Below, in pieces: positions 2,778 to 61,687 of a stretch of DNA of 64,000 bases (within the stretch, counting starts at the first letter, position 1; each line of letters starts with the position of its first letter). The stretch is taken from NCBI RefSeq assembly GCF_009184635.1, contig NZ_WELI01000001.1:558001-622000 (forward strand), in the 5' to 3' direction. Both the position numbers and the translations under genes were made by a program. A model generated the notes under the pieces. That model did no database searches, was not told the origin of the DNA, and was given only the letters and a program-made list of their open reading frames with translations. The stretch is from Rudanella paleaurantiibacter (GTDB lineage Bacteria; Bacteroidota; Bacteroidia; Cytophagales; Spirosomataceae).

Positions 2778-5700
2778 TTACTGCTTCACCACTTTCACGC
2801 TTTGGCTGCGCGTAGGGGTACTAACCTGCACCACAAATACGCCGGGCGTTTTACCCACCCATACCTGCTGCCGAACCGTGTCGCCCGAGGGCTCAACCTG
2901 CCGGGTGCTCAGTACCTGTCCCTGTACGTTCAGAACCTGTAGCGAAACGGGTTCGTTGCCAACCGACTGGATTTCGAGCCGGGCCCATTCGTCGGGTGTG
3001 GGGTTCCCCAGCACCAGTACCGTGAGTTCGCCGGGGCTTTCGTAAGCCATGCGGGAGGTAGCACCGGCACCGGTACAGTACTGTTTGAAGTTGAACGTAA
3101 ACGTGTTGCTCGTCACGTTGCCCTGCCGAACTTTCAGCTGGAAAGCCCCAATGTCGGAGTTCGGGTTATTGATTGCCTTCACCATATCCGGGTTATCGAG
3201 TATCCGCAAACAGTTGGTCGGGTCGGTATTTTTCAAGCCTACGTTGTTGTCGTAGAAAATGGTGGTCCCGTTACCCCCGCGTGTGCTGATGCGGAACGTT
3301 CCCGTTTGGCAATTCACGTCTGTAACGCCCATAATTCGTAGCGTTTGCCCAATGGTATTGGCCGGACTTCCGCAACCGGTAGTACTCACGGGTGCATTCA
3401 CCGTCAGGATAAAAATAGTAGCGGTGGTGAGGCTGCCGGGATCGGTAGCTACGAGGGCTACATTGCTCTGACCAGTGACCGAGGGCGTTCCGGTGATCGT
3501 GGTACCGGTCAGGGTTAACCCGGCAGGTAGTCCTACAACCGATAAAGTCAGACTATTCGGCGTTTCCATATCCGTAAACACCGACCCAACATTGAGCGAG
3601 TAGTTTACTCCTTGTGTAGCCGTCTGCGGACCAACAAGATTGGCAATAACGGGCCGTGTGTTGCCCTGCGCAATTGTGATCGGAATCCGGAACGTTGTTG
3701 AAAGTCCGCCCGGATCAGTCACGGTAATGACTATCGTACTGCTACCGGCTACGGTTGGCGTACCAACCAGATTGGAGCCTGACAGTTGGAGCCCGGCGGG
3801 TAGTCCGCTGATCGACATCAGAAGTTGCGTAGGAGTTTCGGCATCCGTAAAAATGGCGCTTACATTCAGGCTGTAGCTCACACCGGTTGTCCCCGATTGC
3901 GGGCCAACGGGATTCACAACAACCGGGGGCGTGTTACCCGAACGGACTGTCAGTTGGAAACTGGTGCTTACGGTCAGGTTACCGGGGTCGGTGGCCTTTA
4001 GCGTAATGGTGCTCACGCCTGTCGCCGAGGGGGTGCCGGTGATGGCCGTTCCCGTGAGGGTCAGGCCTGCAGGCAGGCCCGTTGCCGACAGGGTCAGGCT
4101 ACCGGGCGTCTGGGCATCGGTAAACACTGAGCCAATATTCAGCGAGTAAGCCGTACCGACAGTACCCGTTTGTGCGCCGATGAGGTTCACCACGGTAGGG
4201 GCCGTGTTGGTCACTACCGTCACGCTCGGAGCCGGGTTCACCGTCAGCACAAAAAGAGTAACGGTGGAGAGACTGCCGGGGTCGGTGGCTATAAGAGCTA
4301 CATTGCTTACCCCCGAAGTCGACGGCGTACCGGTAATAAGGCTACCGTTTAGGGTCAGGCCGGTCGGTAGGCCCAGCGTCGACAACGTCAGACTGTTGGG
4401 TGTTTGGGCGTCGGTGAAGACGTTGCCAATGTTGAGCGAGTAAGCCGTACCAACTGTGGCCGATTGTGGCCCGACGAGGTTGACTATGGTAGGAGCCGTG
4501 TTGGTCACGGTAGTCACACTGGGTACGGGACTCACCGTCAGTTGGAAACTGGTGCTTACGGTCAGGTTACCGGGATCGGTGGCCTTGAGCGTAATGGTGC
4601 TCACGCCCGATGCCGACGGGGTGCCGGTAATGGCGGTTCCTGTGAGGGTCAAGCCTGCGGGCAGGCCCGTTGCCGACAAGGCCAGGCTACCGGGTGTCTG
4701 TGCATCGGTAAACACCGAGCCAATATTGAGCGCATAGGCTGTACCAACCGTGGCCGATTGTGGTCCAACGATGTTCACTACCGTAGGGGCCGTGTTGGTT
4801 ACAGGCTGCGGGGCGCTACAATACGCTTTCATGTCGAACGAGAACGACAGCCCCTGTACACCACCCTGCCGAACCATGACCGAAATGGTCTTGGGGTCGG
4901 AGCGTAAGCCAGCATCCAGAATATGCGAGGGGTTAGTAGTCCAGCCCGTGATACCGATAGCCGCGTACTCGACCGTAGAGCCATTGCCGCCGGTAAAGCC
5001 AAATAGAATGGCCCCTGTCGTACAGTTGTACGTAACCACCGTGGCTGCCAGCGGCCCGCCGGTTATTGGGGGCGGAGGGGTGGGAGTGGGTGGGGCAGAG
5101 GCCGGGTTAATCGTCAGCACAAAGGTTGTCTGTGCCGATAGGTTACCCGGATCGGTAGCCGTAATTGTAATGGTGCTCACGCCCGATACCGAAGGTGTTC
5201 CCGAAATGGTGCCTCCCGAAAACTGAAGGCCCGCGGGCAAACCAGCCACCGACAGCACCAGCCCGGTTGGTGTTTCAGCATCGGTGAATACTGTACTCAG
5301 GTTCAGGCTGTACCCTACACCTACCGTACCCGACTCAGGGGACAGAGCCTTGGCTACCACCGGCGCGGTATTGGCGGGCGGCAGTGGGTTACCCGAACAG
5401 TACGCTTTCATGTCGAAGTTGTACGAAGCCCCCTCCACGCCATTTTGCCGAATGTAGATCGTGATGGTCTTTGGGTCGGCCCGCAAACCGGCTTCAATCG
5501 TTTGATTGGCGTTGGTGGTCCAGTCGGTAATACCCAACGCTTTGTATTCGATCGGCGAGGTAGTGCTGCCGCCCGTAAACCCGAACACAATGGCCCCCGT
5601 TGAGCAATTGTACGTCGAGACAGTAGCTGCCAACGGCTTGGGAGCCGGTGGGTCCATCGTGGTCAGGGCGGGCGAGAATGGGCTTGTACCGGTAGGCATG

Positions 5701-7304
5701 GTACCCCGGCCGAGGAAAATCTCGTCGCCTTTCAGGTTGATCGTCGTATAGAACCGGTAGCTCCCCTGCACGTACCGTACCATCAGCTGCGTTTCCTGAC
5801 TCGCCGACGCGTATGGTTGCGTAGCGGCAATCAGAATCTGGTTGCCGTTAACAATGGCCCGCGCAAATGGCTTACCGCTCCGCTTCTGCGCGTTCGAGTT
5901 CAGCCGGTACCAGGTCTTGCCGTTATCGTACGAGCATTCGGTGGCTTCGTTGAGGTAGGTTTCCTGCCCGTTGAACAAGTCACCGTGATGCTTAAATAGC
6001 CGCCACAAGCCGTGGAGGTAATGTTCGTACACGCTGTAGTTCCGGTTATTGTCGAGGTTTTCGCGGCCCGGCACTACGGGGGCATTAGGCGTCAGAATAT
6101 TCCAGTCGTCCCACAGAATAGCCCCGTGTGCGCCCGTGAACCAGTAAAAAATGCCTAAACCTTCTGCAATGGCCGGTGGGGCCGGGTACTCAGCCCGCGC
6201 AGCCTGTCCCGGCTCCGAACTCTGGGTATTGAACAGCCACTGCCAGGCAATTCGCTTTTTGGGCGACAGCTTCATGTTTACTTCCTGCTCGCCCAGTACG
6301 CTGGCCAGCCAATGCCGGTCTTCATCACCAGTATGCCGGGCTGCGTAGTCGAAGTCTGACGATAGAAAATACGTGCCGGGCATCTGAAAATGAGCCAGTT
6401 CGCCAAAGGTTTTACCCACAATTGCATCGGGCATACCCCGGCCTCGGGTATTGGTGGCGTCAATCTGTTTGGCGGGCATGCGCCAGAGCCAGTCGGGCGA
6501 GCTGAAATTGGCAAAGTCTGACGAACGTGAGTACCCATAACTGTTGTGTGGTACCGGGCCAATCCCGCCAATTTCGGTGTAAGGGCTAATCCGTTGCCGA
6601 AGCATCCACATCTTGTATACGTACAGGTTAGCGTGTTCCTGCTCGTTACCAGGGCTGGTGCCTTCGTTCTCAATGTCGAAGAAAATTTTGCCGAACGTAC
6701 TCACCTGCCCCGAAGGAGGGCAGTCGCCGAAACCAACACAACCCCCGCTCAGCTCAGACATGGCCTGCCCCAGACTCTCGCGCTCGTTGATGGAGCCGGG
6801 TGGCCGCAAAAAGTACGTGTCCTTGGCCAGGTCGCTGTTGCGGGCCCAGGGCAGATTAAAGGGTAAATCTGTAAAGTAGTTCTGGTACAGAATGAGCGAA
6901 CGTTGCTCGGGGAGTAACCGGCTGGTCCAGGTGCTCGACTGCGTGAATTTTGACCCCCGGTCATACTTGGCGTTGGATAATGGCGAATACCCAAGTTCGT
7001 CATCGGTCATCCGCGACCGTTCAATAGCCGAAAAGCCCCGTCGGAACAGTTTGTCCCAACTGTCTTTAACGTGCAGGTTGCGCCCGGCCCCACTAAAGGT
7101 GAGGTGTTTACTCTTGGGCAGCGTAAAATCATCGACCACATCGATATTCCAATACCCCCGTACCGATTGCGGGGTCGGCGTAAACGCTTTTCGGGGCGAC
7201 GGAATCAGGGCCGTTTGTGCCGGTATGTCTTGAGAAAAAACATAGCTACATGTAACCGATAGGCAAGTGAACACTAATAACGGAAGAGTAAATTTTTTAA
7301 GCAT
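2778..7304 (-). CDS. Large T9SS-exported protein: unrecognised enzyme-like head, six putative-Ig domains, sorting domain
   Basis: 1508 aa. A signal peptide (about residues 1-25, ending FSQ) is followed by a head of about 600 residues I cannot assign. It is Trp/Tyr-rich and holds acidic motifs FFDIENEG (about 205) and ILWDDW (about 395) that look like a TIM-barrel glycosidase, but the family is unknown to me. Next come cysteine-bracketed modules (about 555-635 and 750-830) with a putative-Ig (He_PIG) domain between them, then five more He_PIG domains built on NTAP..VGPQSATVGTAYSLN, a third cysteine module, and a C-terminal T9SS type A sorting domain that begins near VLGNPTPDEWARLE and ends KVVKQ. 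The start is the ATG directly before the hydrophobic leader. The gene is preceded by about 350 bases of AT-rich DNA and followed by its own terminator, so it is probably monocistronic. Export by T9SS is an inference from the sorting domain. Confidence 0.85.
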   Translation of the reverse strand: MLKKFTLPLLVFTCLSVTCSYVFSQDIPAQTALIPSPRKAFTPTPQSVRGYWNIDVVDDFTLPKSKHLTFSGAGRNLHVKDSWDKLFRRGFSAIERSRMTDDELGYSPLSNAKYDRGSKFTQSSTWTSRLLPEQRSLILYQNYFTDLPFNLPWARNSDLAKDTYFLRPPGSINERESLGQAMSELSGGCVGFGDCPPSGQVSTFGKIFFDIENEGTSPGNEQEHANLYVYKMWMLRQRISPYTEIGGIGPVPHNSYGYSRSSDFANFSSPDWLWRMPAKQIDATNTRGRGMPDAIVGKTFGELAHFQMPGTYFLSSDFDYAARHTGDEDRHWLASVLGEQEVNMKLSPKKRIAWQWLFNTQSSEPGQAARAEYPAPPAIAEGLGIFYWFTGAHGAILWDDWNILTPNAPVVPGRENLDNNRNYSVYEHYLHGLWRLFKHHGDLFNGQETYLNEATECSYDNGKTWYRLNSNAQKRSGKPFARAIVNGNQILIAATQPYASASQETQLMVRYVQGSYRFYTTINLKGDEIFLGRGTMPTGTSPFSPALTTMDPPAPKPLAATVSTYNCSTGAIVFGFTGGSTTSPIEYKALGITDWTTNANQTIEAGLRADPKTITIYIRQNGVEGASYNFDMKAYCSGNPLPPANTAPVVAKALSPESGTVGVGYSLNLSTVFTDAETPTGLVLSVAGLPAGLQFSGGTISGTPSVSGVSTITITATDPGNLSAQTTFVLTINPASAPPTPTPPPPITGGPLAATVVTYNCTTGAILFGFTGGNGSTVEYAAIGITGWTTNPSHILDAGLRSDPKTISVMVRQGGVQGLSFSFDMKAYCSAPQPVTNTAPTVVNIVGPQSATVGTAYALNIGSVFTDAQTPGSLALSATGLPAGLTLTGTAITGTPSASGVSTITLKATDPGNLTVSTSFQLTVSPVPSVTTVTNTAPTIVNLVGPQSATVGTAYSLNIGNVFTDAQTPNSLTLSTLGLPTGLTLNGSLITGTPSTSGVSNVALIATDPGSLSTVTLFVLTVNPAPSVTVVTNTAPTVVNLIGAQTGTVGTAYSLNIGSVFTDAQTPGSLTLSATGLPAGLTLTGTAITGTPSATGVSTITLKATDPGNLTVSTSFQLTVRSGNTPPVVVNPVGPQSGTTGVSYSLNVSAIFTDAETPTQLLMSISGLPAGLQLSGSNLVGTPTVAGSSTIVITVTDPGGLSTTFRIPITIAQGNTRPVIANLVGPQTATQGVNYSLNVGSVFTDMETPNSLTLSVVGLPAGLTLTGTTITGTPSVTGQSNVALVATDPGSLTTATIFILTVNAPVSTTGCGSPANTIGQTLRIMGVTDVNCQTGTFRISTRGGNGTTIFYDNNVGLKNTDPTNCLRILDNPDMVKAINNPNSDIGAFQLKVRQGNVTSNTFTFNFKQYCTGAGATSRMAYESPGELTVLVLGNPTPDEWARLEIQSVGNEPVSLQVLNVQGQVLSTRQVEPSGDTVRQQVWVGKTPGVFVVQVSTPTRSQSVKVVKQ

Positions 7305-7658
7305 ACATACGGGGGTTTTTATTTATTCTTATAGGCAATTTTGATTCCAATTTCTTATAATTGTTATATGATAATAAATATATTTGTGTAGAAACTGTCC
7401 CGTTGCCTCAAATAGACATTCAATTCTATATTCATAGTAAACATTTAGGCTTAGAGGGGAAAGTTTTTTATTAATTGGTACAGTTTTTGAAGAAGTGGTA
7501 TTGTTTTTAAAAGTATAAGTATTCCGACTAAGCAAAAATGGAGCAACTTGTTCCTATGTATCTTAATAAATAGATATGGTATTATTTGCTTGATAGGTAG
7601 TTTAACAGTTCTATTGACTGCCGAGTAGTGCTTGAGGAGTACTTATAGTAAATACATA
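7305..7658. other. AT-rich leader region with no gene
   Basis: About 350 bases, far richer in A+T than the flanking genes. I found no convincing open frame, RNA gene or full Bacteroidota promoter here; it presumably carries the promoter and leader of the 1508-aa gene. Confidence 0.6.
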
Positions 7659-7707
7659 CGCGAAAAGGGCGACCGTAGATGTACTTTCTACGGTCGCCCT
7701 TTTCGCG
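7659..7707. terminator. Terminator of the alpha-amylase gene
   Basis: Perfect 21-bp arms (7659-7679 and 7687-7707) with a 7-base loop, starting CGCGAAAAGGGCGACC. It begins 27 bases past the amylase stop codon, which fixes the 3' end of that transcript. Confidence 0.9.
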
Positions 7708-7734
7708 TGTTAAGATTACTTATTCAGGTTAGCT

Positions 7735-10689
7735 CTACCTGTTGCCCGATGGTGTAGAGGACTTCGTTGGGAGCAGCTGTTCAACGGGTTGCTGGTTACC
7801 AACGGGCAATTGCCCATCAACCGTGTTGGGTGATGCCATTCGGGCATTGGCAGCACTGACGCACGAGGCCGAGATGGTGGTAGTGGTCGCGGGGTTAACA
7901 ATAATGCTTGGTCCGGTTTGCCCGGTACTCCAGACTACTACATTCGGGGCTGGACAGCCGCTGGCGTCGAGTTGCACCTGCCCACCGGGGCAAACGGCTG
8001 TCTGGTTGGCGACAATAGTGAGCGTTGTACTAACCACAAAGGAGGCTACCGGGCTGTAAACCGCATTGGCGTAGCCCACCCGCAGGTAGTACAGCTGCCC
8101 GGCGTTGAGCGAAGCTGGCAGCGTAACCACCATCTGCGTGGGGTTGGCCGTGGTGGGGGTAAGCGTAGTGGAGGTCGGGAAGCCCGAATCCGAAGCTATC
8201 TCAGCCCAGAATGGCCCGTTGGCTGCAAACGAGCAATTCCCCGGCGCACTATTAGCCATATATGACAGGGTGAGTGATTGCCCACCCGACACCAGCGTTT
8301 GCGATAGGGTAGGGGCACCCGCAAACGTTGGTTGCAAAACCGTGGTGCTCACGGTTGCTGTTGCCGATAGGCCGAGGGCGTCGGTAACCGTAACCGAGTA
8401 CACCCCGGCTGTGCTGGCAGTAGCTACGCTGTTATTGCCCGGAACGGCTACCGCACCCGCCGAAAATTGGTACTGATAAGGGGCTGTTCCGCCCGAAACC
8501 GATGCAGTCAGCGTATTCGATTCGCCCGCGCAGACCGTGGTGCTGGCCAACGTTATCGATAGCGGGGCGGCATCCTGCACCCAAACCGAATAACTTTTGG
8601 CAGGTAGTTCCAGGTAAACCCGGTTCTGCCCGTCGACTACGGCAAACGGGAAGGCCGAGCGGCCCAGCACGTCGCCAAAACGGGTGCCGGTTTGAATGCC
8701 GTTGCGGGTGGTAATCTGATGGTCGACCCGCAGCGGCTGATTGTCGAAGTTAATGGCCACGAGCACTTCTTTACCGCCTACAGAACCTGCGGCATTCAAC
8801 TGGTAAACCAACACCTTGTTGGGGCTGCTCTGAATGTAGTTGTTCGGTGCCGGGGCTGTGTTGCTGCCGCCAAAATGGTTGAGCAGGTCCATGCTCGTGG
8901 AGCCGGTAATGTATTTTTTGTGGACCTGAATCAGTTTATCGATGGCGGGTTTGAGAGCCGGTAGCCCAACGGGGTGGTAATTAAACCCAATCACATCGTT
9001 CCCGTAGGTGGTGTTGCGGGCCGGGTAACCGTAATAATCAGGGTAGAAAACGGCCGGTACGCCTAACTGGTTATTGGTCAGAATCCAGGCGTAGCCCAGG
9101 TCGGGGTTGTTGTGCACCAGGGCGTCACCAAACGTGGGGTTGTCGCTGCGGAAATCGTGGTTGTTCAAAAACGTCACGATGTTGTTGCCCGACCCAAAGC
9201 TATTCCCATCGGTGGCAAACCGAAGGCTGTTGAAATAGGCATTGCGTGGGTCGGCTCCGTTGTCGAGCGCCTGTTTGAGCGCATCGCGCAGGGCAAAGTC
9301 GAATACCCGTACCTGCACATTGTTGCGGGTATCGGTGTTCATGCCGCTATACACCGCATCAACCCAGCCTTTCAGTTCAGCCCGGTTATTGCCGTACCAC
9401 TCACCCACAACAAGGTTGGGCGTGCGGCCGCTGGCGCGCATTTCTTCGAGCATGGTACGCATGAACGAAGGCTCAAAATGTTTGACCGCATCCACACGGA
9501 GTCCCTTTGACCCTAAATCGTCGAAGGCCCATTTTGTCCAGTCGACCAGCAGGTCTTTGGTAGCCGGAATGTTGTGGTCGTAATCGTAGAAATAATCCAG
9601 ACTCTGCATCGACCACTGCGGGCCCAGGCAGGTAGTTTGCGACCAACCCGCCGGACTGCTGCTGGTGAAGTGTGGCCGGAAACCGTTCCAGTCGAGCGCC
9701 CCGCGCCCGCTGGGCATATTTGTAAAGTTGGTGTAGGTCTGAAACTGGAGTTTATACCCCGCCCCAAACGGATTAGTGAAATCGGCTACGTTGTAGGCCC
9801 CTCCACCGTTGGCTGGCACGTAGAAAATATCAATGGGCAGGTGGTCGGAGTACTCGCTGTCGTAGTTGATGGCCTGAATAATGAGAAAATCGCCGGTCGC
9901 ATTGAAGTCGTTAGCAGTCACGGTCACGGCAAATTCATCGAGGTCGCCGTTTCCGTCGATGCGGTTGAGGTAGTTCCGACCCAGCTGAGCTGTGTACTGA
10001 AACACGTCGGCCGAGGTGGTCAGGTCAATGTCGGGTGTCACAACCGGACTCCACCGCGATCCGCCGATTTTGTTGGTCGTGGCATGAAACGCGTACTTGG
10101 CGCCGTTGAAAATATTTCCCCGCGACCGCATCTTGATGTAATACGTACCGGCGCCCTCGGCGGCCGAGCCGCCTATCGGAATGACCATTCGGTACCGATC
10201 CGACGGAAAAGGCCGTTTGAACCCGCAACTGGGATTGTTGCCGCTCGCAAAGGTGGTGATGTAGTCTTTTACGGCGGGGTTGGTTTCCAGATCGCCCGCG
10301 TCGCGGTGGTTGTACACCATGTCGGCTACGGGCGTAATACCCACGGCTGTCAGGGAGTTGACCATACTTTTGATTTCGGGAAGGGTGCCGAGGGAGGTTT
10401 GCGAGGGGCCCACAAACAGGTCGCGCGGGTCGTAGCCACCACTCCGGTTGCCGTTGCCTGCAAAGGGCGGGTACCATACGTGGGTGAAGCCGGCCTGACT
10501 CAGGGCGGGGGCTTTGAGCCGGAGTGTATCCGACCAGTTAAACGAAACGCCCGATGGGCCGGTGGTACTCTGACCCGTTTTGGGATAGTCCCAGTACCAA
10601 CCCTGAAACATAATCTGCGGTGTCGACTGCGCGACGGCCTGAAGGGCGAATGCGAGCAGGCAACAAAGGCTGAGTAAATGGTTTCGCAT
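7735..10689 (-). CDS. Secreted alpha-amylase (GH13) with Ig-like tail, no T9SS sorting domain
   Basis: 984 aa. The signal peptide (MRNHLLSLCCLLAFALQAVAQ) leads into a GH13 (beta/alpha)8 barrel starting IMFQGWYWDY. Conserved region I is DMVYNH. The nucleophile is Asp400 in GLRVDAVKH, the acid/base Glu430 in VVGEWYGNN, and the transition-state stabiliser Asp512 in NNHDFR, so the catalytic set is complete. It should hydrolyse alpha-1,4-glucans outside the cytoplasm. After the barrel and a beta domain (to about 690) come three Ig/PKD-like stretches (for example TVCAGESNTLTASVSGG). The protein then stops at TPSGNR without the sorting domain that its three neighbours carry. The terminator 27 bases further on leaves no room for one. 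The route out of the cell is therefore uncertain. Confidence 0.9.
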   Translation of the reverse strand: MRNHLLSLCCLLAFALQAVAQSTPQIMFQGWYWDYPKTGQSTTGPSGVSFNWSDTLRLKAPALSQAGFTHVWYPPFAGNGNRSGGYDPRDLFVGPSQTSLGTLPEIKSMVNSLTAVGITPVADMVYNHRDAGDLETNPAVKDYITTFASGNNPSCGFKRPFPSDRYRMVIPIGGSAAEGAGTYYIKMRSRGNIFNGAKYAFHATTNKIGGSRWSPVVTPDIDLTTSADVFQYTAQLGRNYLNRIDGNGDLDEFAVTVTANDFNATGDFLIIQAINYDSEYSDHLPIDIFYVPANGGGAYNVADFTNPFGAGYKLQFQTYTNFTNMPSGRGALDWNGFRPHFTSSSPAGWSQTTCLGPQWSMQSLDYFYDYDHNIPATKDLLVDWTKWAFDDLGSKGLRVDAVKHFEPSFMRTMLEEMRASGRTPNLVVGEWYGNNRAELKGWVDAVYSGMNTDTRNNVQVRVFDFALRDALKQALDNGADPRNAYFNSLRFATDGNSFGSGNNIVTFLNNHDFRSDNPTFGDALVHNNPDLGYAWILTNNQLGVPAVFYPDYYGYPARNTTYGNDVIGFNYHPVGLPALKPAIDKLIQVHKKYITGSTSMDLLNHFGGSNTAPAPNNYIQSSPNKVLVYQLNAAGSVGGKEVLVAINFDNQPLRVDHQITTRNGIQTGTRFGDVLGRSAFPFAVVDGQNRVYLELPAKSYSVWVQDAAPLSITLASTTVCAGESNTLTASVSGGTAPYQYQFSAGAVAVPGNNSVATASTAGVYSVTVTDALGLSATATVSTTVLQPTFAGAPTLSQTLVSGGQSLTLSYMANSAPGNCSFAANGPFWAEIASDSGFPTSTTLTPTTANPTQMVVTLPASLNAGQLYYLRVGYANAVYSPVASFVVSTTLTIVANQTAVCPGGQVQLDASGCPAPNVVVWSTGQTGPSIIVNPATTTTISASCVSAANARMASPNTVDGQLPVGNQQPVEQLLPTKSSTPSGNR

Positions 10690-10738
10690 GGACAGTTGTT
10701 AGATGAACAGTAGTTTCAAAATAGGATAGATGAACTGA

Positions 10739-10746
10739 CAAATATA
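10739..10746 (-). promoter_or_regulatory. Candidate -7 box (TATATTTG) for the alpha-amylase
   Basis: On the minus strand this reads TATATTTG, matching the Bacteroidota -7 consensus TAnnTTTG, 49 bases upstream of the amylase ATG. I do not see a clean TTTG -33 box at the usual spacing. Confidence 0.35.
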
Positions 10747-10793
10747 ATTCATCGGCGAGTTTGTTCTCAGTGGGGTGACAAATATGACCACTA

Positions 10794-10883
10794 CATGAAT
10801 GTACCATGAATAGGGTATAATGTACAGTCAGCACAATAGCTCATTATACACTGTACACTATTCATTAGACAGTTTGTGCTGAC
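10794..10883. repeat. Intergenic repeat of the ATGTAC/CATTATAC family with inverted-repeat core
   Basis: Short units like CATGAATAG, GGTATAATGTACAG and CATTATACACTGTACAC face each other, and GTCAGCACA (10827-10835) pairs with TGTGCTGAC (10875-10883). It is related to the element at 2555-2650. Confidence 0.5.
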
Positions 10884-10913
10884 ATAGTGCGTGTTCAGCG
10901 TCTATATAAACAA

Positions 10914-10943
10914 AGAGCCCCCGACGGTCAGGTCGGGGGCTCT
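10914..10943. terminator. Terminator of the 4147-aa secreted protein gene
   Basis: AGAGCCCCCGAC (10914-10925) pairs with GTCGGGGGCTCT (10932-10943), a 12-bp perfect stem with a 6-base loop, 18 bases downstream of the stop codon. Confidence 0.85.
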
Positions 10944-10961
10944 CGTTCAAAGCAGATCCTG

Positions 10962-13900
10962 TTACTGCCGAACCACCTTCACGGTTTTAGTCCGGGTCGG
11001 TGTGCTTACCTGCAAGAGGTACGTGCCCGCCGATTCGCCCAGTTTCACCCGACCACGAGCTACGCCCGAAGCAGGAGTTACTAACTGGTTGCTTACCGAC
11101 TGACCTTGCAGCGCAACCACGCGCAGGGTGACAGCTTCGCTGCCTACTCCGCGTACTTCGACCTCAACTGACTCGGCCGACGTTGGGTTGCCCATTACCG
11201 TAACTTCCAGTTCAGCAGCCGTCTCGCTGGCAACCCGGGCTCCGCCTGTGCAGACTCCTTTGAAGTTGAAGCTAAACGTATTGCTGATGGTAGCACCCTG
11301 AGTCACGCGCAACTGGAACGGATTGATGTCGGACGATGGGTTGTTCACCGCATTAATCAGATCCTGGTTATCCAGTGACCGCAGACAGTTGTTCGGATCG
11401 GCATTTTTCAGACCGACGATGTTGGCGTAGCTGATTGCGCTACCGTCGCCACCGCTGGTCAGAATCCGGAACGTACCCGTCTGGCAGTTTACATCCGCTA
11501 CACCCGTGATCTGGAGTGCACCACCCAACGTATTGGCTGGGCTACCACAGCTTGCCGGGGCAGGCGGAGTTGTTGTGCCGCTCGTTGCCGGGCTTACCGT
11601 GAGCTGGAAGCTGGTGCTTCCCGACAGGTTACCCGGATCCGTAGCTGTCAGCGTAACTGTAACCACGCCCGATACCGATGGGGTACCGCTGATGGTGGTG
11701 CCAGCCAGTGACAGACCAGCAGGCAGGCCGCTGGCTGCGAGCACTAAGCTACCCGGCGTCTGAGCGTCGGTGAAGACGCTACCCACGTTGAGCGAGTAGG
11801 CTGTGCCCACCGTTGCCGACTGAGGACCTACCGCGTTGGCCACCGTGGGGGCCGTGTTGGTGGGTGGCTGTGGGTTGCCTGAGCAGAAGGCACCAAAGTC
11901 GAAGACAAAGGCCGTTCCTTCCACACCGTTCTGGCGTACCCGCACCGTCACCGGCTTAGGATCGGCCCGCAGACCAGCCTCGATCACGTGGTTGGTGTTG
12001 GTTGTCCAGCCGGTGATACCGATGGCCAGATACTCAACCGCTGAACCGTTACCCCCTGTCGAGCCGAAGACAATCGCACCAGTCTGACAGTTGTAGCTCA
12101 CCACCGTTGCCGCCAACGGACCGCCCACAGGTGGGTTGGTCGTGGTGCTGGCGGCTGGGCTTACCGTGAGCTGGAAGCTGGTGCTGGCCGATAGGCTACC
12201 CGGGTCGGTGGCTGTCAGGGTTACTGTTACCACGCCCGATACCGATGGGGTACCGCTGATGGTGGTGCCAGCCAGTGACAGACCAGCAGGCAGACCGCTG
12301 GCTGCGAGCACTAAGCTACCCGGCGTCTGAGCGTCGGTGAAGACGCTACCCACGTTGAGCGAGTAGGCTGTGCCCACCGTTGCCGACTGGGGACCTACCG
12401 CGTTGGCCACCGTGGGGGCCGTGTTGGTGGGTGGCTGTGGGTTGCCTGAGCAGAAGGCACCAAAGTCGAAGACAAAGGCCGTTCCTTCCACACCGTTCTG
12501 GCGTACCCGCACCGTTACCGGCTTAGGATCGGCCCGCAGGCCAGCCTCGATCACGTGGTTGGTGTTGGTTGTCCAGCCGGTGATACCGATGGCCAGATAC
12601 TCAACCGCTGAACCGTTACCCCCTGTCGAGCCGAAGACAATCGCACCGGTCTGGCAGTTGTAGCTCACCACTGTTGCCGCCAACGGACCGCCCACAGGTG
12701 GGTTGGTCGTGGTGCTGGCGGCTGGGCTTACCGTGAGCTGGAAGCTGGTGCTGGCCGAGAGGCTACCCGGGTCGGTGGCCGTCAGCGTAACTGTAACCAC
12801 ACCCGATACCGATGGGGTACCGCTGATGGTGGTGCCAGCCAGAGACAGACCAGCAGGCAGGCCGCTGGCTGCGAGCACTAAGCTACCCGGCGTCTGAGCG
12901 TCGGTGAAGACGCTACCCACGTTGAGCGAGTAGGCTGTGCCCACCGTTGCCGACTGGGGACCTACTGCGTTGGCCACCGTGGGGGCCGTGTTGGCAGGCG
13001 GAGCCACCGTGGTGCTGCTGGCCGGGCTAACGGTCAGCGTGAAAGTAGCGCCGGTTGAGAGGCTACCCGGATCGGTGGCGCGCAGCGTTACGGTGCTTAT
13101 ACCTGAGAACGATGGCGTACCGCTGATGGTCGTACCGCTGAAGGTCAGACCGGCAGGCAGGCCACTTACCGACAGCACCAGGCTGTTCGGCGTCTCCATA
13201 TCGCTAAACACATTACCAATATTGAGCGTAAACGGTACACCTACCGTGGCCGACTGCGGGCCAACTGGGTTGACTACCGTTGGCGAGTTGTTACCCATAC
13301 CACCCGCGCAGGCCGCGAGCGCGTTCCAGGTATAGCTCACCGTTACGCCGTTTTGCGTTGCAAACAGAACGAACGGCTGAACGTTGGGGCTCTGGTTGCG
13401 GATGTCTACCGCTACCTGACCATCAACCATCGCTGTGCAGCTTATGGTTGGGCCGGTGATACCCACTGCCGAGAACGTAATCGGGCTACCGTTACCACCC
13501 ACGGTGATAAACTGAATCTGCCCTGTCTGACAGTTGTAGATCGGCTCCATCAGCGCCAGTGGCTGACCAATGGTGCCCGCTGGGCTACCGCAGGCCGGTG
13601 CTACCGTGTTCGATACCGTAATCGAGATGGTCGCGGTGCCTGAGCAGCCGTTACCCGCTGTACCCGTTACCGAGTAGGTGAAGGTTCCTGTTGCTGAGGT
13701 GGGCGGGTTGATGCTCGCCGTCGTGGCACCGGTGCTCCAGGTGTAGCCCGTTGCACCCGAGGCCGTCAGCGTCAGGGCCTGGCCCATCGTTACTGCAGTA
13801 CCCGGCATAGCCGCAATGGTTACGGCTGGTCCGGCGGTGCTGCTCATCACGGTTGCCGTAGCAGTCGCCGTGCAGTTGCCAGCATTGCTGACCGTTACGG

Positions 13901-22900: not shown

Positions 22901-23405
22901 GGTCTGTAAAGCTGGCACCGTTGTCGGTTGACCCATACACTTTCAACGTGCCTTTACGATCCCCGGCAGTGTTAAACACCGTTGACGCATCGAACGATAG
23001 CGTTCCGGCTTTAAGGCCAGTAAAGCTTACGTAGAAGTCAACGGCTATACTTGTCGTGTTATCACCGGTACCAGTGGATAGTAAGACTAATGTTCCTGTC
23101 CCCCTCTGTAAGCCCCCCGAAGAACCAGTCGTAAAGGATGTACTGGTAAATGTGGTACGAGTTGGGTCAGGAACTGATGCCGAACCGCCTATGGGGACTC
23201 CTTTGAATCGGTTGGCTTCTATGCCAGTCGCAAAGTCGTTCGTCCAGTTAGCGATATCTGCAAAGGTAGCTGTGTAAGATAACCCAGGTTGAGAGGCTAA
23301 AGGTACGGGGGTTTGTGCTTGACCACTGCGCGCCAAGCATAAGGAGAGCAGTACCAACAGGCACGTCAGAAGACGGCCGGTTGGCGGTCGTAGTAGGTGA
23401 GACAT
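10962..23405 (-). CDS. Giant T9SS-exported beta-helix / PKD-like / putative-Ig repeat protein
   Basis: 4147 aa from the ATG at 23405 (an upstream in-frame ATG at 23465 would put 20 polar residues before the leader, so I reject it). The signal peptide (LLTCLLVLLSLCLARSGQAQ) is followed by a jelly-roll-like domain (about 45-235). Three PKD/Ig-like repeats follow (about 235-460). Next is a very long right-handed parallel beta-helix tract (about 465-2190) of NNT/GNT-type turns with two near-identical segments. About a dozen PKD-like repeats of the type AS.VLSCS.TSVTLTA follow (about 2190-3260). Four putative-Ig domains interleaved with cysteine-bracketed modules (about 3270-4065) precede a T9SS sorting domain ending KVVRQ. 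The fold suggests a surface adhesin or a polysaccharide-binding or degrading fibre; no catalytic residues are recognisable. It is monocistronic, with a terminator downstream. Confidence 0.85.
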   Translation of the reverse strand: MSHLLRPPTGRLLTCLLVLLSLCLARSGQAQTPVPLASQPGLSYTATFADIANWTNDFATGIEANRFKGVPIGGSASVPDPTRTTFTSTSFTTGSSGGLQRGTGTLVLLSTGTGDNTTSIAVDFYVSFTGLKAGTLSFDASTVFNTAGDRKGTLKVYGSTDNGASFTDLNADYTATNNVAGSANVSVQLPAAFNNAAQAIFRLYYYNGGTPVGSTGSRPKIAIDNLTVTGFENTVTLASSNSLNCELTSATITAAASATDASTTYAFSAGATPVAQNSNQAVVNTAGPHSVVVNTTGYVSSSATITITVDQNPPVVTVSPSATAICNGSSVGLTASGAVSYTWSTGANTASITVNPTSTTTYTVTGANAGGCTSFTTVTVTVNSFGTAPTLTPSGTLGCGAPTITLTATPAGAANYVFTGPAAVTASGATATVNTPGTYTVTVTDANGCSATATATVTGTGGGCPVQNVTKNLFYATIQAAVSAASPNDLIYVPAGTYDEMVIIDKPLSLSGQGTSTNVTFTGTVPVSALASLFTVASADVTIQNFGFTVDLSKTHSAIHTTGNDRSNLRVLNNTITPVGTPISGQYGRRNAIAINPNIGLSTATLDNDGFGGVVVQGNRVNAHSTLGNSFRAAVQIDLSSGIIGGSGAGQGNSFTAINHDVVARFTNQGDITIEGNTAGGGGIQISDPNPGAGNITVSNNTFNGTFAQPTTGVLPSGALLRIQNNGISGTKTLLVQNNTFSNHRWAISAENNAGFTITGNTFTPNAAATDYRHISVNTKLIASNSATLTDTQMQTLGGTISGNTFNGSSTPNSGTAIAFLNHRTAGAKFGAFTIGSSGSENQFNAAIGTFVMLDNSTGASSGYGSPFGDYAGVSSAITTMGPWATDLDIRNNRFDIGGGLTLPSAFDASQRATLETRLFHKPDDAAVGRLLYFDPVRNLTQNTFFPTIQSAVNAANAGDVIQAAEATFNERVTIDKSLTLQGASKTATILDGTGLSGTGSGISINSGVTNVTIRNLTVQKYVGNGPNSSAGIYAAQGNNNLVVSDVQSLSNSGGAGFYANGPVQSVTVTSSTFSGHDNSKGAARGIVIWNGFKQNIYIVNNTVTNNNCCGIELQDGTASGVTITGNTITDNGDNGIGVTGLQSGAGANLIANNTITNNGRFGIEVKLPNGTGATSGDGSIVVENNTVTRSTAITDARDIGGIVVIRRGFVIGNNNVDIPTGVVVRNNTVSGYQQPSTSDGFGIVVEGIGHTVQNNSVQNNDVGIQQQAGHGPYAANAITDGDQSNLADSYFGRGNSPATCGNTVSGNTFSGNGVDARNVGNVLGVELVTNTNTGQKFCSIQSAIDAAGTQTGHTLQVSPGTYSEQVLVNKGVRIVGSGTPSPVLNFTGTVTGKPTIFDVSADGVSIEGLTFSVDLAKLKSAIIASGASIDNIAIKNNTINGYGTPASGTYTDRNAVSVNFNGNTAYRVATGGVNSVTFTGNTVTGTAPASYFRSGISADEVSGTFTGNTLTSINQDIQIRFNSVGAVTISNNTLNGGGVEFAEPNAGSGQITIASNTFNAAFANAAAPNTAVLRLKNNQAGRTVVVEGNTFSQHQWGISQENFNTVTYNNNTFTPLANSTTFRHLTVNTKSISSNSPDIVLGNQSATLTNNTFNGSGTPGGTGVAFYNHDTDNPTFGTITFGTTGNANTFNAGISTFIRVDNSTGPSATGASSPFTGAAGFPEYGGSIRPTNMGPWTPNIDIRNNRFDLGSGAQLPSTFNASQRATLETLLFHKPDDAAVGQLIYFDPVRNLTQNTFFPTIQAAVNAANVGDVIEAAEYTFNERVTIDKSLTLQGASKTATILDGTGLSGTGSGISINSGVTNVTIRNLTVQKYVGNGPNSSAGIYAAQGNNNLVVSDVQSLSNSGGAGFYANGPVQSVTVTSSTFSGHDNSKGAARGIVIWNGFKQNIYIVNNTVTNNNCCGIELQDGTASGVTITGNTVTGNGDSGIGLTGLKGGAGANLIAGNTISNNGRFGIEIKNPNGTGTTSGDGSIVVENNTVSFAASPSMNNRDHAGISVYRRGMLPNNTEGYPDVPTGVVIRNNTVTGFQHQNQVSAPTESEGFGIVIEGRNHTVTGNTLNNNNIGIQQQGGLHPAANYVANNAGDGLQDAGASPAYFGRGNSPTVCNNTVDANNFSGNTTDVRYSGPAAFTVTALAASATACIGQPVELSAQTLNGTAPYSFTWAAPAGATVNATNLSAVTGTLSASGTQTFTVNVQDTYGCATSATVVVTGKPLPVATLVGPAEICTGNSLTLTAGGGVSYVFSPNVVSSTGNTAVINTAGVYSVTATNSDGCTASKSLTVTESAAATATLSSATLTCAQTSVTLTATGGNSYTLSDGQTNTTGIFSVSTAGSYTVTVTNAGGCTATASSSVTLNNTQPTLTISPSATTICAGTSANLTASGAVSYTWSTGVSTAAISVSPTATTVYSVTGTNAIGCTGTASVTVTVNSIPDVTVAVSPSQTVCAGTSVTLTANAPAGSTYRWAPGLINNTSASFAPLLPLNTTTTYSVTVTNAGCRTTISTQVTVNPRPTVSVSPAAASICSGQSVTLTANATGTGPFSYTWTNAPAGQQNNPFIVVEATGTYSVRVTDANGCTPLLPGVSGIVTIGLPAAPVVSSTNNFTACEGTPVSLSASCVTNTTARWRASDGTITNASTLSSPTTAGTYNYTVVCVASGIGYCESTSILATATVSAAPVVSLAGPALVCSGSSATLTASATTPGTTYVFSSNVVSSAGNTAVINAAGTYSVTATASGCSSTTSLTVGAGTTPTASLTNSGVLSCSNTTVTLTATGGTSYSLSNGQSNTTGIFTVSTAGTYTVTVGNGDGCTSTATTTVTSTTNAITATLVASGTISCANPSVTLTASPSGLASYVFSAGATQIGGSTGNTATVTTAGTYSVTITDAGGCSAVAQVTVMGSSTSPVASLTASGVLSCSTTFVALTASPAGAVSYAFSAGATQIGGSAGNTATVTTPGIYSVVITGANGCTTSASVTVMGSTTAPTVSLANNGTITCNNTSVTLTATPAGQGTYVFSAGATQIGGSTGNTATVSAGGTYTVVVTAANGCTASATTTVESATNAVNATLAASGTLTCAQTSVTLTATGGTSYSLSNGQSNTTGIFTVSTAGTYTVTVSNAGNCTATATATVMSSTAGPAVTIAAMPGTAVTMGQALTLTASGATGYTWSTGATTASINPPTSATGTFTYSVTGTAGNGCSGTATISITVSNTVAPACGSPAGTIGQPLALMEPIYNCQTGQIQFITVGGNGSPITFSAVGITGPTISCTAMVDGQVAVDIRNQSPNVQPFVLFATQNGVTVSYTWNALAACAGGMGNNSPTVVNPVGPQSATVGVPFTLNIGNVFSDMETPNSLVLSVSGLPAGLTFSGTTISGTPSFSGISTVTLRATDPGSLSTGATFTLTVSPASSTTVAPPANTAPTVANAVGPQSATVGTAYSLNVGSVFTDAQTPGSLVLAASGLPAGLSLAGTTISGTPSVSGVVTVTLTATDPGSLSASTSFQLTVSPAASTTTNPPVGGPLAATVVSYNCQTGAIVFGSTGGNGSAVEYLAIGITGWTTNTNHVIEAGLRADPKPVTVRVRQNGVEGTAFVFDFGAFCSGNPQPPTNTAPTVANAVGPQSATVGTAYSLNVGSVFTDAQTPGSLVLAASGLPAGLSLAGTTISGTPSVSGVVTVTLTATDPGSLSASTSFQLTVSPAASTTTNPPVGGPLAATVVSYNCQTGAIVFGSTGGNGSAVEYLAIGITGWTTNTNHVIEAGLRADPKPVTVRVRQNGVEGTAFVFDFGAFCSGNPQPPTNTAPTVANAVGPQSATVGTAYSLNVGSVFTDAQTPGSLVLAASGLPAGLSLAGTTISGTPSVSGVVTVTLTATDPGNLSGSTSFQLTVSPATSGTTTPPAPASCGSPANTLGGALQITGVADVNCQTGTFRILTSGGDGSAISYANIVGLKNADPNNCLRSLDNQDLINAVNNPSSDINPFQLRVTQGATISNTFSFNFKGVCTGGARVASETAAELEVTVMGNPTSAESVEVEVRGVGSEAVTLRVVALQGQSVSNQLVTPASGVARGRVKLGESAGTYLLQVSTPTRTKTVKVVRQ
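11583..13000 (-). repeat. 567-bp tandem repeat inside the giant gene (two full units plus part of a third)
   Basis: Units start at 11583, 12150 and 12717, each offset by exactly 567 bases (189 codons). A unit encodes one cysteine-bracketed module and one putative-Ig domain. By eye the copies differ at only a few synonymous positions, which indicates recent duplication or homogenisation. It is also a likely misassembly point. Confidence 0.9.
17464..17945 (-). repeat. Beta-helix segment duplication, copy 1
   Basis: About 482 bases match 20023-20504 at a constant offset of 2559 bases without indels. I count about a dozen mismatches by eye, nearly all silent, so the encoded beta-helix segment is almost identical in the two copies. 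Confidence 0.9.
20023..20504 (-). repeat. Beta-helix segment duplication, copy 2
   Basis: Partner of 17464-17945; it encodes the same run beginning TFNERVTIDKSLTLQGASK and continuing through VTNNNCCGIELQDG. Flanking beta-helix sequence on both sides is related but clearly more diverged. Confidence 0.9.
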
Positions 23406-23656
23406 AAAACGGTAGTAAAATTTAGACAAATTGAATGTGGAATACAGATGTATTTGTTCTCGCAATATTGCGTAGAAGACGCGATATTATAAAACAATTA
23501 AAGCCTGAACGGAAACTTTTTCTGGTAGTCGGTTGGAATAATATATATGGCTGATTGTCAATATTTTCAATCCCAATAGGGTGTTGATTAAATTGATAGA
23601 ATTATAAGGGTAGTATACAAAAAATCCGTATTTATCCTTAAGTAAATAGCAAGAAA

Positions 23657-23683
23657 AAAGCCCCTCGATTTGAGGGGCCTTTT
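23657..23683. terminator. Terminator of the extracellular nuclease gene
   Basis: AAAAGCCCCTC and GAGGGGCCTTTT form a short GC-rich stem bounded by A and T runs, about 25 bases past the stop codon of the minus-strand gene that ends at 23709. The upstream stretch (23406-23650) is AT-rich and appears empty. Confidence 0.75.
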
Positions 23684-23708
23684 CTCGTTTTTACGCAAAA
23701 AACGAAGA

Positions 23709-26700
23709 TTACTGCTTCACAATTTTCACCGTCTGCTTCTGCGTACCGGTAGTAACCTGGAGTAGATAAATACCCATAGCGTTACCCAACTCAATGCGCT
23801 GACGCAGCGTGCCTTGTACCGGTTGGGCCGTGTGTTGGTTAATTACGCGTCCCCCGGCCGTAGTCAGCATGAAACGAACGGCTTCCTGACCGGCTCCGCG
23901 TACGTCGACTTCAACATCCTCGCTCGTGGTAGGATTACCCAGTACCGTAACGTTCAGCTCACCGGCTGCTTCGCGGGCGATCCGCGCCGGAGCAGCTGTA
24001 CAGTACTGCTTGAAGTTAAAGCTAAAGGTGTTGCTCTGTACACCACCCTGGCTAACTCGCAGACCAAACGGACCAATATCTGACGAAGCCGTGTTGATAG
24101 CCCGCAACAGATCAGGACCGTCGACACCACGCAGACAGTTGTTGGGGTCGGCATTGCTCAGACCGACAATGTTTGCATAGCTGATGGCACTACCGTCGCC
24201 ACCGCTGGTCAGAATCCGGAACGTACCCGTCTGACAATTTACATCCGCTACACCTGTTACCTGGAGCGACTGACCAATAGTGCTGGCCGAGCTGCCGCAG
24301 GTGGTTGTGCCCGTTGGTGGGGTCGTGGTGGTACCTGAGCCAGGGTTGGCGCAGAAAGCACCGAAATCAAACGTGATGCTTACGGTAACACCGCTTTGGG
24401 TTGCCGAGATGGTCAATGGTTTGGCATCGGCCCGTAGACCCGCTTCTACTACACCGGTGTTGCTGGTAGCCGAAGCCCGCTGCACACCGACTGCTGAGTA
24501 GGTGATGGTCGTACCGTCGCCACCTTTGGTGTTGAAGGTAATGTCGCCCGTAGCACAGTTGTAGGTTGGCGGCAGCAGAGCCAGCGCCGAACCCGACGGT
24601 GGGGTGGTGGTAGTACCTGAGCCAGGGTTAGCGCAGAAAGCGGCAAAGTCGAACGTGATGCTTACGGTAACACCGCTTTGCGTTGCCGAGATGGTCAACG
24701 GTTTAGCATCGGCCCGCAGACCCGCTTCTACCACACCGGTGTTGCTGGTGGCCGAAGCCCGCTGCACACCAATAGCCATATAGGTGATAGTGGTTCCATC
24801 GCCACCTGTGGTGTTGAAGGTAATATCACCTGTCGAGCAGTTGTATGTCGGTGTCAGCAGAGTTAGCGCCGAGCCTGAAGGCGGAGCTGTGGTGGTGCTG
24901 GCAACTGGGCTAACCGTGATGGCAAACGTTACCGACGCCGAGAGGCTACCGGGGTCGGTGGCCGTAACGGTTACGTTGACTGTCCCCGACATCGAAGGCG
25001 TACCTGTGATAACCCGCGAAGTTGCATCGAAGCTCAGCCCGTTGGCGGGCAAGCCCGTAGCTGCATAGGTAAGGGCGTCGTTGTTGGGGTCTGTGAATGC
25101 CGGAACCGTGAAACTGTAGGCAGTACCTACTGTAGCTGATTGCGGTGCTACCGAAGGCGCTATCGGAGCCAGGTTCTGCTGGGGAGCCGGGCTAACCGTG
25201 ATGGCAAACGTTACCGACGCCGAGAGGCTACCGGGGTCGGTGGCCGTAACGGTTACGTTGATTGTACCCGTTGTCGAAGGCGTACCCGTGATCGCACGCG
25301 AAGTTGCGTCGAAGCTCAGCCCGTTGGCGGGTAAGCCTGTGGCCGCGTAGGTAAGGGCGTCGTTGTTAGGATCAGTGAACGCCGGAACGGTGAAGCTGAA
25401 AGCCACCCCTACCGTTGCTGACTGTGGAGCTACTGAAGGCGCTACCGGAGCCAGGTTCTGCTGGCTAACTGTCACGCTAACCGTTGTGCTGGTCGTTTGG
25501 GCAGTAGGCGACGTAGCATCCACGGCCGTTACCGTAAACGTTTGTACACCAGCCGACAGACCAGATACCGAAGCGGTATTGCCACTTGGCGTGATGGTGC
25601 CGGGGCCGCTAAACGAGTAGGTGTAGGGCGACGTACCACCGGTTACCGTGGCCGACAGCGTGGTGGTACCCGAAGTGGTGATGGCGCTTGGCGAGGCCGA
25701 AGCGGTCAGTGTCAGGGCCGTTACCGGTGCTGCAAAAGCGAAACGAGTCAGCGACGGATAGTGATCCGACGTTGAGTTCAGGTAGTTGGCAACGATCGGG
25801 CGAACCGACGTTGTGGCGTTGGTGATCGTGTTGGCAAACAGTTCGTTCGATACCATGATGTGGTCGATGGCGTCGGGGTAGCCGCCCGTGGTTGAGCAGG
25901 CACTCTGGTTGAATACGCTTGTTACCACCCGGTAGTTGTTCGCATCATCTACAAACGGTTTGTAGGGCGATGGGTTGCCTACCGCAATCGAAACATCAAC
26001 GTCGTCGTTGTAGTCACCTGTCAGAATAACGGCATCATTCGGGAAGTCAGCATCCATCCGCTGCTTCAGGGCGTTGAGGTCATATACCCGGCGGGCCAGA
26101 TCTTCAACGGCCGAGCCTGACTTGGCGTGGATGTTGATTACCCGCACCCGGCGTGTAGCTCCGTTGATATTTACGTCAGCCGTAAACAGGAATGGGAAGC
26201 GGCCCGAAGCCCAGAAACTGCTGTTGTTTCCGGTTGGGTAGTTGCTTACCGGGAAGTCGGTCAGGTACGCACGCGTTTCGCCGAGTACCGGTGTTACCGT
26301 GCTTGTTTTGTACACCACGCACACCCGCTGTCCAAAGGCATCGGGTGGGTTTGAGAAGCTGTACGAGTACCGGTCAGAGCAGATATACGAGTAGCTGCCC
26401 AACTGGCTAACGGTAGCCGCAAAACGGGGCAGGTCGCTGATTTCCTGGATGGCGTAAATATCGGCATTCAGGTTTTGCAGAACCGTCCGGACGTTGGTGG
26501 CCTGCTGATCGTTGTTCGAAGGACCGTTGGTCGGGTGTCCAAACCATTCCACGTTCCAGGTTACCAGATCGAAGCTGGTATCGTTGCCTGAGGTGGTACC
26601 GTCGCCGGCGCAGAATGAACCTGAAGCACCACCCGTAGCCGCGCCCGATACGTCGCGCAGAATCCGGCCCTGCAACTGCATGTTGTCGTTACCAGCTACG

Positions 26701-61647: not shown

Positions 61648-61687
61648 AAAACGGAGTAGGGGGCCTTTCGTCCCTTTACTCCGTTTT
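61648..61687. terminator. Hairpin AAAACGGAGTA / TACTCCGTTTT between two permease genes
   Basis: Perfect 11-bp arms at 61648-61658 and 61677-61687; the second arm covers the end and stop codon of the upstream (minus-strand) permease gene. It may be a weak terminator or processing site between the two cistrons. A polypurine run (61625-61650) adjoins it. Confidence 0.5.

Follow-up and report, generated by a model that had tools for sequence, protein, structure and literature searches.

A cysteine-bracketed protein module, repeated ten times in three minus-strand proteins of Rudanella paleaurantiibacter, was found to represent an undescribed domain family, on which no Pfam or NCBIfam entry reached its cut-off and whose proposed role is of a known kind. 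The module is probably a disulfide-bracketed, immunoglobulin (Ig)-like beta-sandwich that acts as a rigid spacer in cargo of the type IX secretion system (T9SS) in the family of Spirosoma and Rudanella. The analyzed DNA comprised 64,000 nucleotides (contig NZ_WELI01000001.1, positions 558,001 to 622,000; hereafter, the window), and the three proteins, of 1508, 4167 (the giant) and 1631 amino acids (the nuclease), are described together with their modules in Table 1.

The presence of ten copies in three proteins, as proposed in an initial annotation of the sequence, was confirmed by a model built from 59 copies, none of them from the genome of the window, which recovered all ten at 65–115 bits, the top score in 600 shuffled versions of the same proteins being 9.7 bits. 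Moreover, models leaving out one protein at a time regained every copy of the omitted protein (58–109 bits), the pattern [YV]NC.TG occurred exactly 10 times in the three proteins, and the core boundaries given by the models lay within about 15 bases of the positions first assigned. The EAGLR.D.K described initially for most copies was found in the alignment to mark a short form (six copies, 79–80 amino acids, with [ED]AGLR.D.K), and a long form (four copies, 100–104 amino acids) had no AGLR motif. The long form carries two extra cysteines, one in a CGSP or CGSS at its start and one in an NC or SC of the middle loop. Invariant across the nine distinct window copies (two copies of the giant are identical) were L, N, C, T, G, GG, G, D, Q and the closing Cys.

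In the loci collected via module or sorting-domain matches, 218 distinct copies with at least 20 bits were considered; matches below 20 bits were excluded from cysteine counts, copy tree and subtype counts. Both end cysteines, for which a disulfide had been suggested initially, were jointly present in 211 of them. Five of the seven exceptions were truncated, either where the locus ended or by an alignment that did not reach the first Cys (L084, L134 and three in L086), and the other two were a copy in L127 that has lost both cysteines and a false match in L087. A crude pattern for the two additional cysteines of the long form found both in 25 copies, neither in 177 and a discordant state in 16; the discordant cases consisted of the closing Cys of a preceding module (8), a Cys of another preceding domain (L020 and L148), CGAD variants missed by the pattern (L058 and L060), a copy at a locus edge (L046), a copy with two loop cysteines of its own (L010) and two odd rows (L087 and L127). 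Judging from cysteine conservation alone, a disulfide would join the first and last Cys, and a second one would be present in the long form. The spacing towards the protein end was also narrowly distributed: in 74 distinct tails, counting once those identical over the last 90 residues and excluding frames without a real stop, 12–30 residues separated the closing Cys from the NP of the sorting domain (20–25 in 68 tails, 21–22 in 52), and 9 other frames had their last copy at a greater distance from the protein end.

The identical short copies of the giant (11880–12116 and 12447–12683) are not independent, since they lie in repeats spaced 567 bp apart. The same spacing, with 92% DNA identity, was found for the adjoining He_PIG repeats, which indicates a tandem duplication of module plus He_PIG within the giant gene; it appears in the DNA as direct repeats of 300 bp at 11561–13294, three of them at 567-bp spacing. 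Elsewhere in the genome, two neighboring cargo genes on the plus strand (L059:1410-4184, trypsin-like, and 4308-8045, unassigned) end in almost the same terminal module and sorting domain, a similarity of the kind left by duplication or gene conversion. These repeats and near-identical ends, together with the fact that several copies are closest to others of the same protein, are what would be expected if the module were an easily duplicated Ig-like filler of no special function, spread by recombination and kept near the sorting domain through gene conversion of that end. We regard this reading as very unlikely, given that the Cys pair is retained between copies sharing just 23–30% identity and that both the pair and the linker length are retained over loci of several genera.

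In the genome of the window, 63 copies in 24 frames were found with the first model and 65 copies in 25 frames with a wider one, four matches of 9–10 bits being excluded from the frame count; 20 fetched stretches and the window covered 24 of these frames, and L127 was the 25th. In 22 of the 24 frames (22 of 25 with L127, which is weak and Cys-less, included), 94–102 amino acids lay between the last copy and the stop, and they formed a type A sorting domain. This agreed with the expectation that the module would be found mainly in T9SS cargo; the claim that one copy always precedes the sorting domain held for the three window proteins (3/3), but not for every module frame of the genome. The sorting-domain model TIGR04183 gave 57 matches genome-wide, 22 of them within module frames by coordinates, and in this search the three window proteins (in the order given above) scored 33.3, 31.1 and 34.9 bits, all above the cut-off; scores from the protein scan are listed in Table 1. 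Their N-termini looked hydrophobic when the translations were inspected by eye. The cargo parts preceding the modules were very diverse, including a nuclease, a beta-helix, a trypsin-like protease, two SASA esterases, DUF4331, LRR/DUF285, FG-GAP, SprB and many Ig repeats, as well as GSDH in a frame without sorting domain and some frames without any assigned domain; therefore, the module is not tied to one substrate. Genes for the export machinery were also present: a PorU gene (NF033707, 1241.9 bits) adjoins a PorV gene (NF033709, 405.7 bits) on contig C29, with one PorU above cut-off and two PorV-family genes in total. A dedicated second PorU was considered and rejected, the candidate being just a weak 1041-aa match below cut-off.

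The structure predicted by AlphaFold2 from 42 copies was a compact beta-sandwich (pLDDT 90.6, pTM 0.77), in line with the compact fold anticipated initially, with six strands of at least three residues (5–11, 17–23, 30–33, 45–47, 58–65 and 73–76) and two helices (50–54 and 77–81). When a long module was modeled together with its sorting domain, pLDDT was 83.5 and pTM 0.48, and the linker (residues 110–118) had values below 50. Structural matches of this two-domain model landed on the sorting domain, with complement/macroglobulin domains reaching Z 11.2; the sorting-domain part matched the C-terminal domain of mirolase (8qb1) with Z 10.6 (root-mean-square deviation 1.7, 75 aligned residues) and the ends of PorU, NucA and PorZ with about Z 10, so that T9SS ends were tied with unrelated complement/macroglobulin domains.

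The closest parallel among known systems is found in gingipain RgpB of Porphyromonas gingivalis, in which an immunoglobulin superfamily (IgSF) domain is connected by a 9-residue linker to the sorting domain and has been proposed as a spacer or insulator, and lengthening of the junction resulted in non-glycosylated protein (PMC4804311). In Prevotella intermedia, the cut is reported to fall within the coil that links the last domain of the mature protein to the structured portion of the sorting domain (PMC11969387). Like the IgSF domain of RgpB (PMC4804311), the module stands directly before a type A sorting domain, with a short linker, in T9SS cargo; unlike it, the module has a Cys bracket and a predicted C-terminal helix, is repeated and occurs in many kinds of cargo. 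Searches of PDB sequences with profiles A4 and A5 (3 and 8 rows, respectively) listed no gingipain and no RgpB, Kgp or PPAD IgSF domain at E ≤ 10. With the same place, a similar fold class and a fixed short linker, the module would most likely be a neck equivalent to the gingipain IgSF domain, either arisen separately or diverged beyond recognition, and then multiplied.

From these sequence-level data and the predicted fold, we infer how a spacer of this kind could operate during export, cutting and anchoring. The terminal module would hold the cargo proper apart from the sorting domain while the protein crosses the outer-membrane channel, and would present a well-folded block beside the linker, where PorU is expected to cut. 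After cutting and attachment, it would remain as a membrane-proximal neck, and internal copies, in tandem or alternating with He_PIG Ig repeats, would lengthen the stalk. Among the three functions suggested initially (stalk, glycan binding or anchoring), stalk or spacer is the best fit, whereas anchoring by the module itself is unneeded, because the sorting domain and PorU provide it in known systems.

A closer association with a particular type of sorting domain was observed within the genome. In a tree of its 57 sorting domains, based on few columns and with a bootstrap that had not settled, 20 of the 22 module-linked domains fell in one clade of 22 members (support 99/91), and the module-linked label required 5 changes, compared with 17.6 in shuffles (0/500 as low). 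The clade is marked by GNP in 19 of its 20 module-linked rows (NNP in the other), whereas rows outside have mostly PNP. Its two other members are L117, where the domain before the sorting domain ends in FVWNFRQAC and was missed by the module models, and a 74-aa fragment (L121). A 74-aa GNP-type fragment without upstream frame was also recorded at L126:6164-6385 (minus strand), probably a gene remnant. A model of the GNP-type domain gave some match in all 61 family genomes examined, often weak, and reached ordinary sorting domains too. Among the 26 loci fetched, which were the best matches, one per genome, 14 carried the module directly before the sorting domain; four of these came from the genus of the window, and four had a divergent Y[TI]DNP form scoring just 12–22 bits. 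This divergent subtype, with an SC or DC start, Y[TI]DNP and a YNWL-like motif before the closing Cys, was seen directly before the sorting domain in L129, L134, L139, L151 and L086, and, being in the same place, it extends the module family.

The clade, the fixed linker and the long subtype VNCQTG...VGL, terminal in 13 of its 14 copies (61 of 204 for the other types), would be consistent with a composite signal in which terminal module and GNP-type sorting domain are read jointly by PorV/PorU or another T9SS component. We consider this unlikely, since 12 of the 26 fetched GNP-type domains across the family lacked a module before the sorting domain, several module subtypes occupied terminal places, no dedicated machinery was seen beyond the one PorU and two PorV-family genes, and the supporting tree has the limits given above. 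A cassette in which the module always accompanies a GNP sorting domain is strong in this genome and not family-wide, and is therefore retained as a rival only. In a further variant, which we hold to be a decidedly long shot, the pair would form a two-domain export-and-anchoring tag of the Spirosoma/Rudanella lineage, whose disulfide-stapled module is a folded checkpoint licensing sorting rather than merely spacing; if so, only cargo with an oxidized and folded last domain would be released from the channel and passed on to PorU.

Several observations weigh against the spacer reading. At the structural level, the module model had no Foldseek match in the PDB at E ≤ 0.001, the top rows being mostly Ig-type domains with TM 0.3–0.56, and a second structural comparison gave Z 7.2 for CD48 (root-mean-square deviation 2.5, 70 aligned residues) and Z 6.3–6.4 for FN3 and PKD domains; because of the missing Foldseek match and Z values that were all below 8, "Ig-like" is a class-level statement that covers the general arrangement only. 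The module would thus belong to a general Ig/FN3/PKD type, with no close known relative (the absence of RgpB from the best 50 structural rows carries no weight). At the level of position, the GSDH protein in L065 has 171 amino acids after the module and no sorting domain; the frame in L064 extends beyond the fetched stretch, and no TIGR04183 match was found on its contig; and L127 (804-6005, minus strand, 1734 aa) contains two weak module-like stretches, the clearer of which (22.6 bits) is without both end cysteines, with no TIGR04183 match nearby in the genome search. Terminal copies are not a single subfamily: in a tree built from the genome's 64 copies they were spread over several subtypes, with 11 label changes (shuffled mean 18.4, 0/500 as low). 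Finally, the 12 GNP-type loci without module and the existence of DUF4331 proteins both with the module (L073, L135 and L143) and without it (L137, L138 and L152, which belong to those 12 loci) imply that the module is optional and not required for export generally.

A different function for the repeats would be binding to glycans or matrix, the module behaving as a carbohydrate-binding (CBM)- or adhesin-like domain that attaches the cargo to polysaccharide of the cell itself or to polymers used as food, with multiple copies providing avidity. This role is compatible with the repetition of the module in predicted surface proteins, with the ITGWTTN loop that one subset carries, with weak structural matches (among very many others) to SGBP-B and Sas6, both of them glycan-binding, and with the presence of CBM6/35 in one host protein (L074). 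However, Trp was present in just 44% of 128 copies, the loop varied among subsets, and the best-conserved residues (Cys, Gly, Thr, Tyr/Phe and one Gln) resemble those of a fold core. Given the low Trp frequency and cargo parts so diverse that no common substrate emerges, a shared glycan ligand is disfavored, and this part of the initial proposal, without support here, appears unlikely, even as the strongest of the alternatives to a spacer.

The statement that the module is not a named domain was borne out by family searches. Scans of the whole window proteins against Pfam and NCBIfam, which show only the best stretch per family, returned He_PIG Ig repeats, a beta-helix, the Exo_endo_phos nuclease and the sorting domain. 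When the nine distinct window copies were scanned singly, none reached a curated Pfam cut-off (He_PIG, Ig_7 and SprB included) or an NCBIfam cut-off, so that no match to a characterized domain arose at cut-off in either database. Neither of the two tests put forward initially as able to refute the proposal did so. Below it, TspB_C_term (NF041109, cut-off 24) gave 13–14 bits over 23–27 residues in three of the nine copies and 22.6 bits on the whole nuclease. In the 42 copies of profile A4 (window and named loci), one matched aBig_2 (E 0.0007) and no Pfam family matched more than one copy; in the same genome as the window, one copy in L063 gave an isolated match to TIG_plexin (23.3 bits, cut-off 22.7). 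He_PIG (PF05345), Ig_7 (PF19081) and SprB (PF13573) resemble the module in being repeats of Bacteroidota surface proteins, several of them within the same proteins, but none matches the singly scanned copies, and Por_Secre_tail and the type A sorting domain (PF18962, TIGR04183) are neighbors of the terminal module, which is separate and N-terminal to the sorting domain. A match to streptococcal hemagglutinin (three PDB chains, E about 0.5 with profile A4) was dismissed for short alignments. A kinship with SprB/Ig_7-like repeats, prompted by common Cys and GG motifs, was set aside after hhalign gave a probability of 0.6%; since the comparison covered just twelve Cys-bearing Ig-like repeats, all from the giant, a distant kinship may exist. 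In the parts available to us of the literature on Rudanella, on Spirosoma with T9SS and on sorting domains with Ig-like domains, no such module was found.

Within the samples searched, the module occurs in a single family (Rudanella, Spirosoma and Arsenicibacter), and no match outside it was convincing. At most 34 (family sample), 13 (phylum sample) and 23 (order sample) candidates per genome were scored, so that the numbers of copies, and perhaps those of genomes, are minimum values. The module was detected in at least 44 of 150 genomes and at least 12 of 36 genera of the family sample (that of the window included), in at least 3 of 395 genomes of the phylum sample, all from the same family and one of them that of the window, and in at least 18 of 241 genomes of the order sample, 16 of them in the family. 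The two weak matches outside (E 5e-4 and 6.5e-5) were rejected, the one in L087 being read as a SprB-like repeat and the one in L088 as a PA14/fibronectin-like stretch. Named loci belonged to Rudanella sp. CAN_BIN22, a Cytophagales metagenome-assembled genome, Spirosoma endophyticum, Arsenicibacter rosenii and "Flavobacterium sp. SUN052", with best identities to a window protein of 66% (SUN052), 66% (Spirosoma endophyticum) and 63% (Arsenicibacter). A transfer to another class via "Flavobacterium sp. SUN052" (L044, L046, L047, L051, L052 and L054) was discarded, as its loci have 49–53% G+C, its genome is 8.1 Mb and its identity to the window protein is that just given; it is most likely a mislabeled member of the same family. 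A 16S search bearing on its placement found none in any of three genomes. With respect to mobile context, one Spirosoma oryzicola plasmid and no phage were found. Three module frames appear in the same order, and with comparable sizes and copy numbers, in another genome of the genus (G002:C1:1741417-1760076), and the three-gene module cluster is probably conserved between the two genomes.

Table 1. Module-bearing proteins of the window, with their module copies and sorting domains (window coordinates; bits refer to TIGR04183).
Feature	Position	Strand	Remarks
T9SS cargo, 1508 aa	2778..7304	-	After an N-terminal part without assignment: two short modules, He_PIG Ig repeats, the long terminal module and the sorting domain
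Short module copy 1, 1508-aa protein	5394..5633	-	
Short module copy 2, 1508-aa protein	4815..5051	-	
Long module, terminal, 1508-aa protein	3072..3374	-	Core 3072-3341 plus N-terminal CGSP extension
Type A sorting domain, GNP type, 1508-aa protein	2781..3032	-	29.3 bits (protein scan, cut-off 23)
Giant T9SS cargo, 4167 aa	10962..23465	-	TTG start; beta-helix and Ig-like repeats, He_PIG repeats, four modules, sorting domain
Long module, internal, giant	13305..13592	-	Core 13305-13559
Short module, giant	12447..12683	-	Protein identical to copy at 11880-12116
Short module, giant	11880..12116	-	Protein identical to copy at 12447-12683
Long module, terminal, giant	11247..11549	-	Core 11247-11516
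Type A sorting domain, GNP type, giant	10965..11216	-	22.5 bits (protein scan, slightly below the cut-off of 23), 31.1 (genome search)
T9SS cargo, 1631 aa (nuclease)	23709..28604	-	Exo_endo_phos nuclease domain, He_PIG repeats, three modules, sorting domain
Short module copy 1, nuclease	24630..24866	-	
Short module copy 2, nuclease	24348..24584	-	
Long module, terminal, nuclease	23997..24299	-	Core 23997-24266
Type A sorting domain, GNP type, nuclease	23712..23963	-	28.6 bits (protein scan)

Two other proteins of the window were also recorded. An alpha-amylase-like protein of 984 amino acids, with Ig-like stretches at its end, is encoded at 7735–10689 between two of the T9SS cargoes, and no sorting-domain match was found for it in the window frames, either in the protein scan or in the genome search. 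At 61676–63967, a 763-aa protein belongs to a large paralogous family, with 39–54 matches per genome in Spirosoma and two relatives.

The module adds to the T9SS an unnamed domain family that reaches 63–65 copies in one genome. The role of the domain standing just before the sorting signal has so far been probed, according to the accessible portion of the literature, for the gingipain RgpB. DUF4331 proteins with and without the module offer a natural comparison, in which its role in export or anchoring is directly testable, and a profile model of the module would annotate part of many large proteins that are currently named just for their T9SS type A sorting domain.

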